A stretch of 64,000 nt of DNA from Candidatus Zixiibacteriota bacterium (GTDB lineage Bacteria; Zixibacteria; MSB-5A5; DSPP01): NCBI GenBank assembly GCA_022614805.1, contig JAKEHY010000008.1:1-64000 (forward strand), given 5' to 3'. A program made the position numbers and the translations under genes. Every line of letters begins with the position of its first letter. Position 1 is the first letter of the stretch. Shown here one piece after another: positions 50,162 to 63,170 of this stretch. The notes beneath the pieces were generated by a model. That model was given only the letters and a program-made list of their open reading frames with translations. It was not told the origin of the DNA and searched no databases.

Positions 50162-50251
50162 GTTTTTTGTCGGGGTGGTAATCAAATTTCGAAAAGAGCT
50201 TGATTTCTTAATTTTTTGCTCTACCTTACCAATCGCAAGGAGATATCTTCA

Positions 50252-51484
50252 ATGTCGGTAAAGAAATCTGCGACAGCCATCACCTTAGGCGTAATATTAC
50301 TTCTTTCCGGGGTCGCTTTTTCCAAATCCGCCTGGCGGCGGGTGGACAGCGGCACGCAATACTTTATGAAATCCATTTCCGCCCCGGACTCCTTGCACGT
50401 CTGGGTGACGGGAAGCGGACGCGTTTTACGTTCCACGGATGGGGGATTAAGTTGGAGCATTCAATTCAATTCGCCAAGTGTGGGGTTCGATATAGTCAGA
50501 TTTGTTGACTCTTTGCACGGCTGGGGTTTGGGGGCTTTTTGTTGCTATGTTTCGGTTGTCTATAGAACGGTTGATGGCGGCAGTACTTGGAATCAGGTCA
50601 ACTTTCCACCTACGATACAACCAATACGTGCGGCCAGTTTCGTAGATACCCTTAACGGCTGGGCGGCCGCCGATGGAGATACAATATATCGTACTACAAA
50701 CGGAGGTTTAAGTTGGACCCCTCATTTCGTGGGAGAAAGTTCCTTTATCCCCTTTCAAATTCAGTTTGTGGACAGTTTGAGAGGATGGGTGGCAGGGTCA
50801 AAGTTCACCGGCAATGAATACCCCCGAATTTTTCACAGTTCGGATGGGGGGAGAAATTGGGTGATGCAGAGTTTGAATCTGGCCGATACGGGTGGTTACG
50901 TCAAAGATATTGACTTCATTGACGGCAATATCGGCTGGCTTTTGACGGCGGTGGCAGGAGAGAGAATTTATCGTACTACGGATGGGGGTGTCACTTGGGC
51001 AGTTATGTATGGGGAAGCCGGCGGGCCCATCAGAAAAGCATTGGATTTTATTGACGATTCGAGAGGATGGATGGCTGGAACAACATTCTTTGGCGGCTTC
51101 GTTTCAACCATCGGCCACAGCATTGACAGCGGCAAAAGTTTTGTTGATACGGTGATTCAGGAAGGCGGTGATGCTCAAAAAATCAAGATGTTCAATGAAA
51201 ACATCGGGTGGGCTGTCGATGATGCAGGAGGTGTCCTGCTATATGCGCCGCCGACACTGGGGGACGTGAACTGGGACGGGAATTTTACCAGCGCTGATGT
51301 CGTGCTTGAAATAAATAAGGTATTTCTGGAAGAACCTTTTCCCGCTCCGGCGGAGGCAGGCGACGTTAATTGCGACAGCCGGTTTAGTGCTGCGGATGTA
51401 GTTTGGCTGTTGCAAGCGATATTTATGGAAAGACCGTTTCCTTGTAGTATTGCTTCACAGACCGATTTGGCAAACTTAAGTTAG
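50252..51484 (+). CDS. BNR/YCF48-like secreted protein with dockerin
   Basis: A 410-residue protein with a signal peptide (about 1-25). Residues 35-330 are BNR/YCF48-like beta-propeller repeats (repeating units such as RSTDGGLSW, YRTTNGGLSW, YRTTDGGVTW with SLHGWGLGA/SRGWMAGT between). Residues 345-400 form a dockerin (GDVNWDGNFTSADVV and DVNCDSRFSAADVV), the fourth dockerin in the window. GCAAGGAGATATC precedes ATG 50252. It is probably surface or secreted; BNR domains often bind sugars or proteins, but the ligand is unknown. Confidence 0.85.
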   Translation: MSVKKSATAITLGVILLLSGVAFSKSAWRRVDSGTQYFMKSISAPDSLHVWVTGSGRVLRSTDGGLSWSIQFNSPSVGFDIVRFVDSLHGWGLGAFCCYVSVVYRTVDGGSTWNQVNFPPTIQPIRAASFVDTLNGWAAADGDTIYRTTNGGLSWTPHFVGESSFIPFQIQFVDSLRGWVAGSKFTGNEYPRIFHSSDGGRNWVMQSLNLADTGGYVKDIDFIDGNIGWLLTAVAGERIYRTTDGGVTWAVMYGEAGGPIRKALDFIDDSRGWMAGTTFFGGFVSTIGHSIDSGKSFVDTVIQEGGDAQKIKMFNENIGWAVDDAGGVLLYAPPTLGDVNWDGNFTSADVVLEINKVFLEEPFPAPAEAGDVNCDSRFSAADVVWLLQAIFMERPFPCSIASQTDLANLS

Positions 51485-54169: not shown

Positions 54170-57100
54170 ATGAAACAGGTGTGGCTTTGGCTCACCGTGG
54201 GGTTTGTTTTTTTTTCCGTTGGGGGGGGATTCGCAGAGGAAAGCTTTTTGCCGCAGGATTTGGCGGCATTGCCATCCGGAGTCATAAAATACGACTCGTA
54301 CGACCCGGATAGCACCCCATTTGGGAGGTCTATTAAGAATTTTAGCAACTATTGGGTGGGGGTGAAATTTGTTCTCCCTTCCGATGAATGTATTTGCTTC
54401 GGTTTCACCCTTACTCATTTAGCCTTTAAAATCGATAATTCCTCCTTAAATACGGACGATACCGCTTATTTCTATGTCGTCAGACACGATGCCAATTCAG
54501 GTTTGCCGGACTTTCAAAACGGAGTTTTGGAAAGTCTAAAGATAGTTGCCCCCTTGGACCGGCTCCAGGGAGTTCCCTTAATTTCCGAGCATAGCTTCGG
54601 AAATGAACCTTTCTGGATTGTCTTGGGGCCGGTACCCGGAGGACCCGATAACGAGCAGCGGGGTGAGGGTTGGTGGGCTTTTACCGACACGACTCCTAAC
54701 GAGAATAGCTTCTATTCATCCAATAGATTAATTTGGACCCAAGATTTTATGACCAATCCGGGAAATTTTGTCATCCGTGCTCACGGAAATTTTAGCGCGA
54801 CTCCGCAGGTTGTCGTCAACGAGGTGATGTTCAACGCCGACCCATCTTCTGCCGATCCTGCGCGTGACCACGAATGGGTGGAGCTTTATAATCCCGCGGA
54901 AATACAAACATTGGCAGACTGGTCTATAATAGATGGCTATCGCAGTACTTCAGAGCGCGATTCTTTTAAACTACCATCGGTCGATATGCCCACCGGCAGT
55001 TATTTGGTCGTACATTTTGACACCAGCACCACCGGCACCGACCTTGACCTAACGGACGGTGTCGGCCATATTTACACGGGCACTACCCACGGAGTTTTTC
55101 ACGACAGCAAAGATGCCTGTGCGCTTTTGCTGCCGGAGCTTGCCGGCAGTAGAACCTACCGCGACGTGGTTGGCTGGAATGTGGAAAATTTAAGATTAGG
55201 AGAGGAAGGCACAGCGGCCCTGACGCCTACCGAGCAACACGCGCGCTTTTCAATTGAGCTAGATACGGTGAGGAGAGTAATGCCAGTGGGCACGGTGGGG
55301 CCTCTTTTTTCTTCCGGGATTGGTTTAAGCGTTGGGCGAAATGGTGCAGGAACGGATGATACGACAGGAACGACACAAGACATAGCTTTTGTGGGAGGAA
55401 CAACGGCGGCTGGTCCAACGTTGGGACGGAGCAATGTTTTACCAATGATTGTTGACAATTCCAATGTCCAGACTCCTGCAGCTTCGAATGCTCTGTGGAC
55501 ACTTATGTTTTATATCGCGGCGGATAACGGCAGTGGCATTTTCACTCAAAGCCGGTGGTGCTACGACCTTTTGAACCAAGTCGAAAGAGTACTCCCCGCC
55601 AGTCCGGAAAACATAAATGTGGTTGTACTGTTTGACTCTTGGGGTGTCTCTCCGCAGGTCGGTTCACCAGCGGGGCCAAGCGCAACCTATAGGGGGGTAT
55701 TGCGGCGTGACCTATCTGACACGGTACGCAATCTGGGCTTTATTTCTTCAAGCTTTAACACCGGAGACCCGGATTCGCTGGCCGGTTTTATAACGTGGGC
55801 GAAAGGTTTGTTTCCCGCCAGCAACTATGCCTTAGTGCTTAAAGGAGACGGTGCTGGTTGGCAGGGTTTATGCGGCGATGCCAGCAGTATAGACCGAATA
55901 GAGATGGGCGAGTTGAAATCCGCGCTGGGAGCGGGTTTGGGAACAGACAGTTTGGGCCTTCTTATCTTTGATGCTCCTTTTATGAGCCAGTTGGAAGTGG
56001 CCACGCAGGTAAAGAATTTTGCCCACTTTATGGTGGCTTCTCCGGAAATGACCGGACCGGCCGATTTTGATTATGCCCATTTGGTGAGCAAGCTTAATAG
56101 CCAACCTTCAATATCCAGAACGGATTTGGCCGGTTTTGCCGTTGACAGCATTTTAGACAGACGGTTACGATTAGATCCTTTTTCAGTATGGACGGCTATT
56201 CGCCTGGACGGTTTGGGTCCCCTTTTGGCTTGGGTGGATTCGCTGGCTCGCCATTCGGAAGCCGGTGTTAAGGACGCCTGTGGGTCCGATAATTTTTCCG
56301 ATAATTATCAGCTGAGAATACGGAGTTTTTTACGGAGGATTAGCACCGACCATTACGGCATACAAGCTCAAGGAATGGCCGACTTTGTAGATTTGAAGCG
56401 GCTGGCCCAATCTTTGAAAGAACTCATTCCCTCGACCTGCACTCAAGGCCAGCATAACAAAGGAGCTATTGAAGTAGAAAACCTCCTGATACCCGAAGGC
56501 CCCATAATCACGGCCCTTGGGGGGGGCGGAACGGAACTGGGGGGATACCACTACGGGGTGGGTCCCGCCGGAGGACTGTCAATTTATTTTCCTTCCGCGA
56601 GGCAAAGGGACATTCCCATTGCCCCCAAGGGTTTTAGACTTCGACCCTACACATCCCGCAGCGACCATCCCTTTGACTCGGCGGGTTTGGAAACAGAGGG
56701 AGGTATTTCTCAAGGCCGCAGGATATACGCCGCGGATTTAACTGCTTGCTATCCGCACGCAGGCGACACCTGCTCAACGAGCGATTCCAGCGACGCACGA
56801 AATCATCCCTTTCAACCGGTTGCCGACTTTGATTTTGTTCGGGACTATCATTGGGACGAGTTTTTAATTCGTTATTACAAACCTGTGGCGGATGCAGGCC
56901 CTGGGATTCCGATAGACAGACAACTAAATGAAGTGTTTTCTCTGGATGCCTCTGGAACATCCGACCCTGACGATAGCCTCTCAACTCTTTCTTATTATTG
57001 GGATCTTTTCGCCGCCGATGATCCTTCTACCTCATGTTCGGATTATCGGCTTGATGACCTTGACAAAGACTGCGTTAACAACGGCAACGATGATGCTGAT

Positions 57101-58126
57101 TCAAATAGCCAAATAATTTCTCTTAAATACACGACCAGCGGAACACACTGGGTTTGGCTCCATGTATGGGACCCGACGGATAATAACTTGGACGATTCTC
57201 GCCGCCGGTTCCAAACTTCGAAAGACAGCGTAGAAATTCAAATTCAGTTCAGAGGGATACACCTCGTTTATGAAGACGCCGTAGTAAGACCTGTTTATAC
57301 AGGTTCATTTCCTGATGTTCCGTCGACTAGGCAGCTTAACGCCACCAGTACCTCCACGAGAAACGGTTTACCCGAGGATACATTTATTGTTTATGTTCCC
57401 TCCGCCACCACGGGCGAACCCCATGTTATCTGGGCCACAGGAAGCGCTTCTCCCCCGCTTTTTCCCTCTGCCTGCCAAAAGGCTATTAACAAATCCTTGG
57501 CGCACGAAGGAATGGGCTTTTTAATATTTGGGCCTGGGGTGGCAGGTGACCCGGAAGCTAAGCGGTATTTCGACTCGCTCGGATTTGCAATCGATCCAAC
57601 ACCTACTCCATCGGCAAACTTTATTGTACCGGACTCCACTTATCCCCAGCATTTTCTTTTCGAACTTGATTCGCTTCACCTTTCTCCTCCGGGGGTGCAA
57701 CTTGGCTTAGATGCAGCAAGTTTGGATTCTTGTGTTTTTCCCATCTTGAAAACAGATGCCGGCAAAATAGTAGCAGCCGCAAAAGTTACAGACAGCGGTA
57801 AACATGCGGTTGTCTACTTCGCCTTCGATCTGGGCCAGTTAGGGAACTCTTCCGATAGAATCGCTCTTTTGGCCAAGGCCTTGGGTTGGCTGGCTTCACC
57901 CGTTCCGCCTCAAAATGTGCCGGTTTGCTGCGTGAAGGGAGATGTAAATCAGGATGGTACTCTAAGCGCTGCTGATGTGATAAAATTAGTTAATTGTAGT
58001 TTCTCACAAACCGAAAGTTGCCTCCTTTGTGCCGCCGATGTGAATTGTTCTGGCGATTTGTCGGGAGGTGATATTGTGATTTTGCTTCAAATGGCATTCA
58101 ATAATGCCAACGACGAATGTCCGTAG
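54170..58126 (+). CDS. Giant exported protein: lamin-tail domain, inactive clostripain-like domain, dockerin
   Basis: A 1318-residue protein with a signal peptide (about 1-22). A lamin-tail domain lies around 218-345 (VVVNEVMFNA, WVELYNPA). Residues about 440-640 match clostripain (peptidase C11): WTLMFYIAADN, YALVLKGDGAGW and LLIFDAPFMSQLEVATQ. The catalytic His is Asp560 (GDGAGW) and the catalytic Cys is Pro603 (FDAPFM), so the domain must be inactive as a cysteine protease. A PKD-like unit lies near 900-1010, an alpha/beta unit near 1020-1240, and a dockerin (about 1255-1318, GDVNQDGTLSAADV). AAGGGGAGGC precedes the ATG. Confidence 0.82.
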   Translation: MKQVWLWLTVGFVFFSVGGGFAEESFLPQDLAALPSGVIKYDSYDPDSTPFGRSIKNFSNYWVGVKFVLPSDECICFGFTLTHLAFKIDNSSLNTDDTAYFYVVRHDANSGLPDFQNGVLESLKIVAPLDRLQGVPLISEHSFGNEPFWIVLGPVPGGPDNEQRGEGWWAFTDTTPNENSFYSSNRLIWTQDFMTNPGNFVIRAHGNFSATPQVVVNEVMFNADPSSADPARDHEWVELYNPAEIQTLADWSIIDGYRSTSERDSFKLPSVDMPTGSYLVVHFDTSTTGTDLDLTDGVGHIYTGTTHGVFHDSKDACALLLPELAGSRTYRDVVGWNVENLRLGEEGTAALTPTEQHARFSIELDTVRRVMPVGTVGPLFSSGIGLSVGRNGAGTDDTTGTTQDIAFVGGTTAAGPTLGRSNVLPMIVDNSNVQTPAASNALWTLMFYIAADNGSGIFTQSRWCYDLLNQVERVLPASPENINVVVLFDSWGVSPQVGSPAGPSATYRGVLRRDLSDTVRNLGFISSSFNTGDPDSLAGFITWAKGLFPASNYALVLKGDGAGWQGLCGDASSIDRIEMGELKSALGAGLGTDSLGLLIFDAPFMSQLEVATQVKNFAHFMVASPEMTGPADFDYAHLVSKLNSQPSISRTDLAGFAVDSILDRRLRLDPFSVWTAIRLDGLGPLLAWVDSLARHSEAGVKDACGSDNFSDNYQLRIRSFLRRISTDHYGIQAQGMADFVDLKRLAQSLKELIPSTCTQGQHNKGAIEVENLLIPEGPIITALGGGGTELGGYHYGVGPAGGLSIYFPSARQRDIPIAPKGFRLRPYTSRSDHPFDSAGLETEGGISQGRRIYAADLTACYPHAGDTCSTSDSSDARNHPFQPVADFDFVRDYHWDEFLIRYYKPVADAGPGIPIDRQLNEVFSLDASGTSDPDDSLSTLSYYWDLFAADDPSTSCSDYRLDDLDKDCVNNGNDDADSNSQIISLKYTTSGTHWVWLHVWDPTDNNLDDSRRRFQTSKDSVEIQIQFRGIHLVYEDAVVRPVYTGSFPDVPSTRQLNATSTSTRNGLPEDTFIVYVPSATTGEPHVIWATGSASPPLFPSACQKAINKSLAHEGMGFLIFGPGVAGDPEAKRYFDSLGFAIDPTPTPSANFIVPDSTYPQHFLFELDSLHLSPPGVQLGLDAASLDSCVFPILKTDAGKIVAAAKVTDSGKHAVVYFAFDLGQLGNSSDRIALLAKALGWLASPVPPQNVPVCCVKGDVNQDGTLSAADVIKLVNCSFSQTESCLLCAADVNCSGDLSGGDIVILLQMAFNNANDECP

Positions 58127-58576: not shown

Positions 58577-59452
58577 ATGAAGCGCACACTGACGCTTGCC
58601 GTCTTAGTGGCCTTCTTAGTGCCGGCTTTTGTATTTGCGGCCATGGCTCCCGGTTCAAGACCCGACCCAGGAAACCCGGATAAGGTTTACTTTGGTGAAC
58701 CCAGTTTTCCGGCCGATAATAAGGTCGTGGTGGCCATCAACGTAAAGAACGACGAGCCGGTAACGGCCCTCGATATCCCCTTGAAGTACGGGAATCCCGA
58801 CGAAGGCGTCATTCTGGAGAAAGTGGACTTTGAATTCCCGGATAACCGGGTAGGCAATTTCCAGTTCAAATTCTCCAAAATAAACGATAAGGCCAAAACG
58901 GTCTTGATCGGTCTGGTCTCCTCCGCTATGAGTTTGGAGGAAGATATGCAGCCCGGCTCCGGCCCGGTTGCTTACCTCCATTTCACGGTTACGGATGACC
59001 GGATGACCGAATTTACGCTGGATCTCGACAATTCCAAGGCCCCCTCACACACCCTGACGCTTATTGAGAACCGGGTGGTTGGGGAGAATGGCCGGGATGT
59101 TATCGACTTCAAGCCGGGCTTTACCCCGACACCTATAAAGCTGGATAGGGCGGGGAGTGGAGCAACCCTGCCGAAGGAATATTCCTTGCGGGGTAACTAC
59201 CCGAATCCATTCAATGCCAAAACCGTCATCTCCTTCGCTCTGCCGAAGGAATCCAGAGTCTCCTTGGATATCTACAATATCCTCGGTCAGAAAGTGAAGA
59301 CTTTGGTGAATGGAATGATGCCGGCCGGGTATCAGAAAATAGAATGGGACGGCACGGACCACAACGGTCTGGGGGTTTCTTCCGGCGTTTATCTCTATAA
59401 GCTGAAAGCCGACGAATTCTCGCGGGTCAATCGAATGACCCTCTTGAAGTAG
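58577..59452 (+). CDS. Exported cohesin-like protein with FlgD/T9SS-like C-terminal domain
   Basis: A 291-residue protein with a signal peptide (about 1-22). Residues 30-190 look like a cohesin-like beta-sandwich: VVVAINVKNDEPVTALDIPLKYG and VAYLHFTVTDD match the strand pattern of cohesins that bind dockerins; this is suggestive, not proven. Residues 205-290 are the FlgD-Ig/T9SS-like sorting domain (YSLRGNYPNPFNAKTVISFAL, LGQKVKTLV, SGVYLYKL). GGGAGGTTTATA precedes ATG 58577. Several dockerin proteins lie in this window, so it might be a docking partner. Confidence 0.72.
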   Translation: MKRTLTLAVLVAFLVPAFVFAAMAPGSRPDPGNPDKVYFGEPSFPADNKVVVAINVKNDEPVTALDIPLKYGNPDEGVILEKVDFEFPDNRVGNFQFKFSKINDKAKTVLIGLVSSAMSLEEDMQPGSGPVAYLHFTVTDDRMTEFTLDLDNSKAPSHTLTLIENRVVGENGRDVIDFKPGFTPTPIKLDRAGSGATLPKEYSLRGNYPNPFNAKTVISFALPKESRVSLDIYNILGQKVKTLVNGMMPAGYQKIEWDGTDHNGLGVSSGVYLYKLKADEFSRVNRMTLLK

Positions 59453-60773: not shown

Positions 60774-63170
60774 ATGCGGGGTTTAATTGGACTCCTTCTT
60801 TTTTCTCTTGCCACCTCGACTACCTTTGCCGTTCCCCGTCCCAAGCTGTTCGGAGCCGGTCAGCTCTCCCAATCCAGCAGGGACAGCATAAAAGTCTGGA
60901 TTTTCTTTCGGGATAAAGGAACCCCCCGCACTTTTCAGGCGATTTCTCAAAAAGCGACTGCGCGGACGGCCCGGAAGGGGAATGTTTCCGTCTCGACCGA
61001 AGCTGAAAGGCCCGTTTCTTCAGCTTACTTGCGGGCCGTTGAACGTTTAGGCGGCCGGGTCTGGCACACCAGCCGCTGGCTGAATGCCGCTTCGGTCTGG
61101 ATTACGCCCCAAATGCTCTCGGCCATTGAGCAGCTGCCTTTTGTAGCCGGCTTTAGGCCGGTGGCAAGATATATTCGCCGGCCCGACCCGGAACCGTCCG
61201 AGCCAGCCGGATTGGTCCTACAGAAACCGCTGGAGGCGACTTATGCCGATTCGTATGGTCCAACCATCACACAACTCGATTCCCTTAACATTCCCATCGT
61301 GCACACCCTCGGGTACCGCGGGGACAGCGTTTTGGTGGCGATGCTGGACGATGGGTACCGAAAGAACCATACAGTGTTCAGCGCTCTATACGCTAACAAT
61401 CAGGTGTTGGCGGAATATGATTTCATTCAGAAGGATTCTGATACGGCCCCGGGAGCGGGCGATTCTCCCACCCAGGGAAATCACGGCACCTCGACCTGGT
61501 CGGTGGTGGGCGGCACGGTACCGGGAAGTTTTCTGGGGGGCGCTTATAAAGCCAACTTTATTCTGGCCAAAACCGAGTACATCCCCGCCGAGAATCGGGT
61601 GGAGGAAGACAACTGGGTAGCGGCTCTGGAATGGGCCGACAGCATCGGCGCCGATGTGGTATCCAGTTCCTTGGCCTATCTCGACTTTGACGACACGTGC
61701 GGTTGCGATTACTCTTTTGCCGATTTGGACGGAATGACAACCATCGTTTCTTCCGCCGCTTCCACGGCCGCTGATTTAGGGATACTGGTCTGCAACGCCG
61801 CTGGCAACAATGGCCCTCCCGACAGCTCAATATGGGCCCCGGCGGATGCGTTCGACGTACTGGCCTGTGGAGCAATCGATAGCAATGGCAATCTGGCTTC
61901 CTTTTCCTCCACAGGGCCGATAGCGGACGAGCGGATCAAGCCAGAGGTGGTGGCGCAGGGTGTCAGAACGTATTTAGCCAACCCACTTAATTTATCGGGT
62001 TACGCACGCGGCGACGGCACCTCATTTTCCACCCCTTTAATCGCTTCCGCTTCCGCCGTATTGATGTCCGTCCATCCGGACTGGCCCCCCCGGCAAATCC
62101 GCGAGGCGTTAATGCTGACCGCCAGCAACGTAGGTTCGCCAAACATACAGAGGGGCTGGGGTGTTCCCGATGTGTATAAAGCGGCCGTTTTCCGGCCCGA
62201 CAGTACCATCACTTTGGAAGTTGTCAGAGAAGGTCCGGTAGTCAACGTACCGCCCGGAACTTCCTCTTATCCGGTAAAGGTTGTGGTGCATAATCCGCGG
62301 GCTTTTCCGGTTACCTCGCCCCAGCTATTTTTTAAGGAAATTTCCGGTTCCGGCTTCTCTTCCGTGCCTTTGACCCCGGCGACCGGCGACACCTTTACCG
62401 CCAGCCTTACCATCGGTTCGGGAGACCGGGAAATTGTTTTTTACGCCTCGGCCAACGGCGGGGTGGTTAAAGACCCTGTTTTTGCTCCCGCCTGGCTGTA
62501 TCGCCTTCCCGCCCGCCCCTGGTTCAAGAGCGAGGCCGATTTGGGACCTTTCGATTGGAATACTTCCGGCACCAGTTTAACCTGGGGGCCTTCGGGGCGG
62601 CAGTCCTATTCCGGCTATTTATCCTTCGGAGATTCCCCCCGCGGGAGCTACCGCAACAACGCGGATGAGCGCTGGGAGATGCGAAGCGGGGTGAACTTCA
62701 ACCCCGCCACCAACTACTTTCTGCGATATTTCGAGCGCCATGCGCTCGCCACAGCGGGAGATTCGGTTTGGGTAGAGGCCTCCACCGATGGCGGTTTGAA
62801 CTGGACCCCCCTGCCGGGAACGAGGAGAACGGGCAACCTTTCCACCTGGACGGAGAGAATCGTGTCTTTGGGCACGTATGTCCAGTCCCCCGATTTTAGA
62901 ATCCGCTTTCGCCTGAAAAGCGACGCCTCCGGCGTGGCGGATGGGTGGTTTGTGGACGACATCTCCATTTTGCCTCGCGGCGACCTGAACGGAGACGGTC
63001 TTTTTTCGGCTGCCGATGTGGTTGCCCTGGTCAACTTTATTTTCAACGACGTAGCTCCTCCCGTGCCCTTGGCCGCCGCCGACGTGAACGGAAACTTGGC
63101 CTACTCTGGGGCGGATATCGTTTGCTTGGTGCAGTCTGTTTTTAACGCCGTTCCCTGTCCGGCTCCGTAA
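60774..63170 (+). CDS. Subtilisin-like serine protease with dockerin
   Basis: A 798-residue exported protease. Signal peptide about 1-19; propeptide about 25-130. The S8 catalytic domain spans about 165-470 with Asp192 (MLDDGY), His237 (QGNHGTS), Asn345 (oxyanion, AAGNNG) and Ser417 (DGTSFSTP), so the triad is complete. A beta-rich linker (470-580) and an Ig-like/MAM-like region (about 585-730) follow, then a dockerin (about 740-798, GDLNGDGLFSAADVV and DVNGNLAYSGADIV). It is the only clearly active enzyme among the dockerin proteins here. Confidence 0.92.
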   Translation: MRGLIGLLLFSLATSTTFAVPRPKLFGAGQLSQSSRDSIKVWIFFRDKGTPRTFQAISQKATARTARKGNVSVSTEAERPVSSAYLRAVERLGGRVWHTSRWLNAASVWITPQMLSAIEQLPFVAGFRPVARYIRRPDPEPSEPAGLVLQKPLEATYADSYGPTITQLDSLNIPIVHTLGYRGDSVLVAMLDDGYRKNHTVFSALYANNQVLAEYDFIQKDSDTAPGAGDSPTQGNHGTSTWSVVGGTVPGSFLGGAYKANFILAKTEYIPAENRVEEDNWVAALEWADSIGADVVSSSLAYLDFDDTCGCDYSFADLDGMTTIVSSAASTAADLGILVCNAAGNNGPPDSSIWAPADAFDVLACGAIDSNGNLASFSSTGPIADERIKPEVVAQGVRTYLANPLNLSGYARGDGTSFSTPLIASASAVLMSVHPDWPPRQIREALMLTASNVGSPNIQRGWGVPDVYKAAVFRPDSTITLEVVREGPVVNVPPGTSSYPVKVVVHNPRAFPVTSPQLFFKEISGSGFSSVPLTPATGDTFTASLTIGSGDREIVFYASANGGVVKDPVFAPAWLYRLPARPWFKSEADLGPFDWNTSGTSLTWGPSGRQSYSGYLSFGDSPRGSYRNNADERWEMRSGVNFNPATNYFLRYFERHALATAGDSVWVEASTDGGLNWTPLPGTRRTGNLSTWTERIVSLGTYVQSPDFRIRFRLKSDASGVADGWFVDDISILPRGDLNGDGLFSAADVVALVNFIFNDVAPPVPLAAADVNGNLAYSGADIVCLVQSVFNAVPCPAP

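Follow-up and report, generated by a model that had tools for sequence, protein, structure and literature searches.

The window, the whole stretch of 64,000 nucleotides from a Candidatus Zixiibacteriota bacterium that was analysed here (source genome G000, 2.56 Mb on 38 contigs), contains a gene at positions 54170 to 58126 encoding a protein of 1318 amino acids (P0001, the pseudo-C11 protein), as indicated by its open frame and by a full-length ortholog in the same genus. This gene, the features within it and its two neighbours at 58577–59452 and 60774–63170 lie on the plus strand. By eye, the translation begins with a signal-peptide-like stretch of about residues 1–22 (54170–54235). Residues 209–322 (54794–55135) form a Lamin Tail Domain-like region (Pfam LTD 33.3 bits, cut-off 34.3), for which the ortholog from the second species of the genus (L003, genome G001) and a relative from outside the genus (L004) gave sub-threshold matches of 21.7 and 28.0 bits, respectively. 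The central part of the protein, residues 448–756 (55511–56437), is matched by Peptidase_C11 (PF03415) with 82.6 bits against a cut-off of 25.8 (E 5e-23). At residues 761–905 (56450–56884) alignment with L003, L004 and other C11 proteins revealed the C-terminal C11 motifs GLSIYFPSA and WDEFLxRYY, conserved in L003 and L004 and partly in the others. Residues 906–1027 (56885–57250) were assigned as PKD-like by alignment to a sub-threshold Pfam match in L004, and PKD was not matched by Pfam in the window protein. The protein ends in a dockerin-like tail at residues 1256–1305 (57935–58084), which scored 18.2 bits with Dockerin_1 in the protein scan and 24.0 bits in a whole-genome search (cut-off 22.9). 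The Pfam scan of the protein at E up to 1 returned C11, LTD and Dockerin_1 only.

Dockerin-like matches are frequent in the source genome (35 at E up to 0.01, four of them inside the window), while no cohesin was found there above the Pfam cut-off (best 21.1 against 24.1 bits). One further protein of the window, encoded at 50216–51484, is weakly Ycf48-like (67 bits, cut-off 326) and carries a dockerin-like tail. In L003 the tail aligns with that of the window protein, yet Pfam detected no dockerin in it at E up to 0.1. Because of this missing match and the lack of an above-cut-off cohesin in its own genome, a possible tethering of the protein through its tail is weakly supported.

The order of the genes around the pseudo-C11 gene is shared by G001, the sole genome of the same genus among the 58 relatives compared. 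Along this syntenic block, the blastp identities between the two species are 78% (dnaX), 86% (ybaB), 43% (the pseudo-C11 protein), 65% (a protein whose tail is of the T9SS sorting type), 67% (a hotdog thioesterase), 58% (an open reading frame assigned to no family), about 72–73% (a subtilase) and 73% (yceD); dnaX and ybaB were named by reading of the translations. In both species the gene of the sorting-tail protein (58577–59452; FlgD_ig, Por_Secre_tail) immediately follows the pseudo-C11 gene. The N-terminal domain of this protein was matched by no Pfam family at E up to 1 and by no PDB sequence convincingly, and the single-sequence model of the protein was unusably poor (pLDDT 33.5). A by-eye likeness of this protein to a cohesin was unsupported by the Pfam and PDB sequence searches. 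The subtilase (60774–63170; S8 138.2 bits, Dockerin_1 26.2 bits) lies further downstream in both species and has a dockerin-like tail and Asp, His and Ser motifs that are intact in both. Should there be a partner protease, this subtilase would be the obvious candidate, but the presence of dnaX, ybaB and yceD in the same block makes gene order weak evidence of a shared function. Elsewhere in the source genome, a single C25 (gingipain-type) match was found (L060), in which intact His and Cys motifs and a C-terminal sorting-like tail are recognizable by eye.

Both defining catalytic features of family C11 are missing from the window protein. In alignments to C11 enzymes, the catalytic His of the HG motif is replaced by Asp560 (55847–55849) and the catalytic Cys of the DAC motif by Pro603 (55976–55978). 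Of four phmmer alignments with the solved C11 structures 6n9j, 6mzo, 9cip and 3uws, three covered the first of these positions and each put Asp560 on the catalytic His, while every one put Pro603 on the catalytic Cys; MAFFT alignments agreed with both placements. The score against the clostripain equivalog TIGR02806 was 15.8 bits, compared with the 550 needed. By eye, the loop after the His position, where a C11 peptidase would carry its Lys/Arg autoprocessing site, is short and retains Arg576, and two Lys residues of the corresponding loop in L004 are Gln and Gly in both proteins with the Asp/Pro pair. Since both catalytic features fail, the protein is, judged from its sequence, a C11 homolog and not a C11 peptidase, and we infer that the domain is catalytically inactive. 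The preliminary description of the locus had placed a C11-like domain with a double catalytic loss in this open reading frame, flanked by the motifs YALVL, IFDA, QLEVA and HFMVASPE; the domain, its coordinates, the motifs and the alignment to active family members all bear it out.

An AlphaFold model of residues 442–905, computed from an alignment of 19 rows, had a pLDDT of 68.0 and a pTM of 0.78, with confidence below 50 for residues 809–887. It superimposed on clostripain (9cip_B) with a Z score of 31.0 over 371 residues at 2.9 Å, and on 9cip, 6n9j, 6nag and 6mzo with Z scores of 28–31 across 317–371 residues. The modelled domain is accordingly of the C11 fold. Chains of Raptor were also among the structural matches, with Z scores of about 10. 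The two dead positions come after well-predicted strands (block pLDDT 89 and 86).

PmC11 has His133 and Cys179 as its catalytic pair, and Asp177, conserved in C11, is regarded as its chief S1 residue; Asn50, Thr204, Met205, Gly134 and Asp207 are given as further pocket residues (PMC4850288). In the ungapped alignment to 3uws_B, counted by hand, Asp601 of the window protein (55970–55972) corresponds to Asp177 and Thr628 (56051–56053) to Thr204. The S1-pocket Asp is kept in both species with the Asp/Pro pair. The position of Asp207 is occupied by Ala631, which adjoins Asp632, so the acidic pocket is kept in part and not in full. The preliminary suggestion that the domain binds a substrate peptide is thus compatible with the retained S1 Asp, binding itself being inferred.

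The ortholog L003 is full length and 47% identical to the window protein and has the identical Asp/Pro pair, encoded by GAC in both species at the Asp position and by CCT and CCC at the Pro position. An identical pair in a full-length frame at this level of divergence places the loss of the dyad beyond chance. Counted per residue of the window protein, identity to G001 is 45% over the whole protein and 75% in the core around the dead site (residues 550–640, 55817–56089), compared with 36–59% in the other nine segments measured. Among 1231 windows of 88 amino acids, the top identity of 76% was reached in only three, starting at residues 549, 552 and 553, the last of which corresponds to residues 553–640 around the dead site. 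With windows of 60 amino acids, residues 830–890, which lie outside the catalytic core, tied with residues 552–613 at 77%, so that the dead site is not the sole constrained stretch.

At the DNA level, 212 codons for Ala, Gly, Pro, Thr or Val are conserved over the whole gene, and 143 of them have a different third base in the two species; in residues 550–640 this holds for 14 of 26. For this core, dN was 0.20 and dS 2.4 between G000 and G001, whereas over the whole gene dS was not computable and synonymous sites are near saturation. Amino acids that are held while the DNA has drifted are contrary to decay and support purifying selection on the surroundings of the dead pocket, a conclusion that depends on a single comparison with near-saturated synonymous sites, as the pair occurs in two species only. 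The earlier proposal of a non-catalytic role for which the domain is retained finds support in three observations, namely the Asp/Pro pair shared with a syntenic ortholog, the conserved region around the dead site and the diverged synonymous sites.

A search of 132 genomes of the phylum for C11 matches at E up to 1e-5 detected the family in 19 of them. The 21 match rows correspond to 20 genes, as the two rows of G039 belong to one gene. At the position of the catalytic Cys, 13 genes have Cys, six have Pro, and in one (G118) the sequence ends before it. Two of the 13 Cys genes, L048 in G033 and L049 in G128, are very divergent C11-like genes whose motifs were recognized by eye and whose matches are limited to about 135–145 profile positions. 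Another C11 gene with an intact dyad (L041, G043) contains an internal TAA and may be a pseudogene or an assembly error. The six Pro genes have Asp at the His position in G000 and G001, Gln in G131, and a retained His in G052, G130 and G042-C59, the last of which is truncated by a contig end.

The closest relative outside the genus, SM23_73_3 (G042), keeps both His and Cys in its protein L004, which is 35% identical to the window protein over residues 211–1025 and has LTD, C11, PKD and dockerin matches, three of the four below the Pfam threshold. The translation is identical to that of the protein on LJUX01000008.1 (SM23_73_3), and L052 is the same protein. A scan of genome contigs with the full-length Asp/Pro pair as query returned zero relatives, and a second scan gave five loci (L052–L056); the His/Cys dyad is intact in L053, L054 and L055, and L056 matches in its C-terminal part only.

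In a tree of 17 of the 20 phylum genes and three outside loci, the window pair grouped with the intact-dyad G042-C13 protein (99/97), while the other four Pro genes formed one clade (99/98) beside two Cys genes. Forcing all Pro genes together was rejected (AU p 0.003), and again with masked motif columns and only one of the three outside rows retained (AU p 1.2e-8), in a tree with long branches for L053, L054, L043 and L055, an unusual letter make-up of the G001 row and unresolved deeper forks. A single origin of the Cys-to-Pro replacement is thereby rejected, and the replacement occurred at least twice. Since SM23_73_3 keeps both residues, the dyad was lost within the window lineage, after this had split from an ancestor that resembled G042-C13 and had a similar architecture.

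The second pseudo-C11 lineage (L008:850-2367, L044:1042-2526, L045:1132-2700, L050:1300-1995) has Pro at the same Cys position as the window protein but differs from it in its separate origin, in the His, which is kept in three of the four proteins, and in the S1 Asp, which is replaced by Tyr or Asn, so that the two dead lineages are unlike each other. A PEGA tail is present in the three members examined, and the N-terminus is lipoprotein-like by eye. G042 carries both a Pro gene of this second lineage and the intact-dyad C11 gene, on separate contigs.

The window protein shares its fold, the motifs near the catalytic site and the S1 Asp with the enzymes of family C11 (clostripain, 9cip; PmC11, 3uws; iotapain, 6nag; 6n9j), but differs from them in the Asp/Pro pair and in being joined to LTD-like, PKD-like and dockerin-like regions. 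By analogy, it would work most like the pseudo-orthocaspases of family C14. According to the work describing them (PMC6426788), these are likewise bacterial clan-CD proteins in which both dyad residues are replaced, and their pocket Asp residues and catalytic-site surroundings are the most conserved, which resembles the conservation of the acidic pocket and the site surroundings in the window protein. They differ in having a p20 domain, which Pfam did not detect in the window protein even at E up to 1, in their Tyr/Ser or Tyr/Asn replacements and in occurring in photosynthetic bacteria (PMC6426788).

The caspase-like domain of Raptor is a second relative of the clan-CD fold. It has no measured protease activity and is proposed to recruit substrates through a short motif (PMC5205667). 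Raptor is eukaryotic and intracellular, and its inactivity does not stem from loss of both residues, because His153 and Cys196 are described as conserved (PMC5205667). NCBIfam NF052323 (T9SS-dependent M6-like inactivated metalloprotease) is, by its name, an inactivated secreted protease family. It differs in being a metalloprotease family, and its far-below-cut-off match was to the sorting tail of the 58577–59452 protein only and not to the pseudo-C11 protein. In the literature searched, of which coverage was partial, no report of a C11 pseudopeptidase was found, and this is not proof of absence.

Other explanations of the locus have to be weighed against a maintained binding protein. The dead domain may be an assembly or structural module that lends rigidity to a protein of the surface or matrix, with the old cleft free of ligand, a possibility that we consider unlikely though worth keeping in view. 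It would suit the large multi-domain architecture, the many tagged proteins suggested by the 35 dockerin-like matches, and the conservation of residues 830–890, which equals that of the dead site at the 60-residue scale; yet a scaffold alone leaves unexplained why the pocket region is so much better conserved than the other segments. A role as regulator, chaperone or substrate presenter of another protease seems to us somewhat less likely still. The triad-intact, dockerin-tailed subtilase in the block shared by both species and the C25 protein of the same genome, with its intact motifs, would be available as partners, but the subtilase shares the block with dnaX, ybaB and yceD, and gene order need not imply a common function. 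An active C11 is an improbable partner: one C11 each was detected in G000 and G001 (93% and 99% complete, E-limit of 1e-5 for G001), which argues against regulation of a C11 enzyme in the same cell and makes the maturation partner proposed at the outset unlikely.

We regard it as very improbable that the protein is an active enzyme that has rebuilt its catalytic site, with Cys568, just past the old His, as one conceivable nucleophile. This Cys is common to both species, but several dyad-intact C11 proteins (e.g. L036, L007, L006, L053 and L055) have a Cys there too, which marks it as an old residue of the family and an unlikely migrated nucleophile; in addition, His619, the sole His in residues 550–640, is absent from G001. 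For the two genomes compared, it is scarcely credible that the gene is decaying into a pseudogene or that a sequencing artefact lies behind it. An intact-dyad relative does exist in L004, an observation that the preliminary description would have taken as a sign of decay, and the gene is 43–47% identical between the species compared with 58–86% for the neighbours compared. The window copy is nevertheless without signs of decay, its frame being full length and its Asp/Pro pair shared in two genomes and the dead site highly conserved.

Taken together, our results suggest that the protein is probably, if by no means certainly, a maintained pseudopeptidase with a dockerin-like tag, binding a basic peptide or protein and leaving it uncut. 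Its ancestor would have been an active LTD-C11-PKD-dockerin protease of Zixibacteria, in which His and Cys were both lost before the split of the two species of the genus. Purifying selection would then have held the region around the dead pocket. Export would most likely proceed through the signal peptide and tethering most likely through the dockerin-like tail, and the clan-CD cleft, with Asp601 kept and Asp560 added, may hold a basic Arg/Lys partner uncut. A bolder proposal, which we consider doubtful, is that C11 domains became non-cutting receptors at least twice in one phylum, each time through the same replacement of Cys by Pro. Because the acidic S1 residue is kept in this genus, such a receptor would capture protein ends bearing Arg or Lys at the cell surface and perhaps present them to the dockerin-tagged subtilase downstream.

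Most peptidase families can be expected to include inactive members, and the effect of the present case is therefore modest. Clan-CD pseudoproteases are already known among the caspase homologs, whereas a case in the clostripain family is apparently unreported in the literature searched. A dead C11 domain with its pocket region among the best-conserved parts of a large secreted protein would mean that the cleft can be of use through binding alone, and the repeated Cys-to-Pro replacement offers a simple sequence mark by which further cases may be found.
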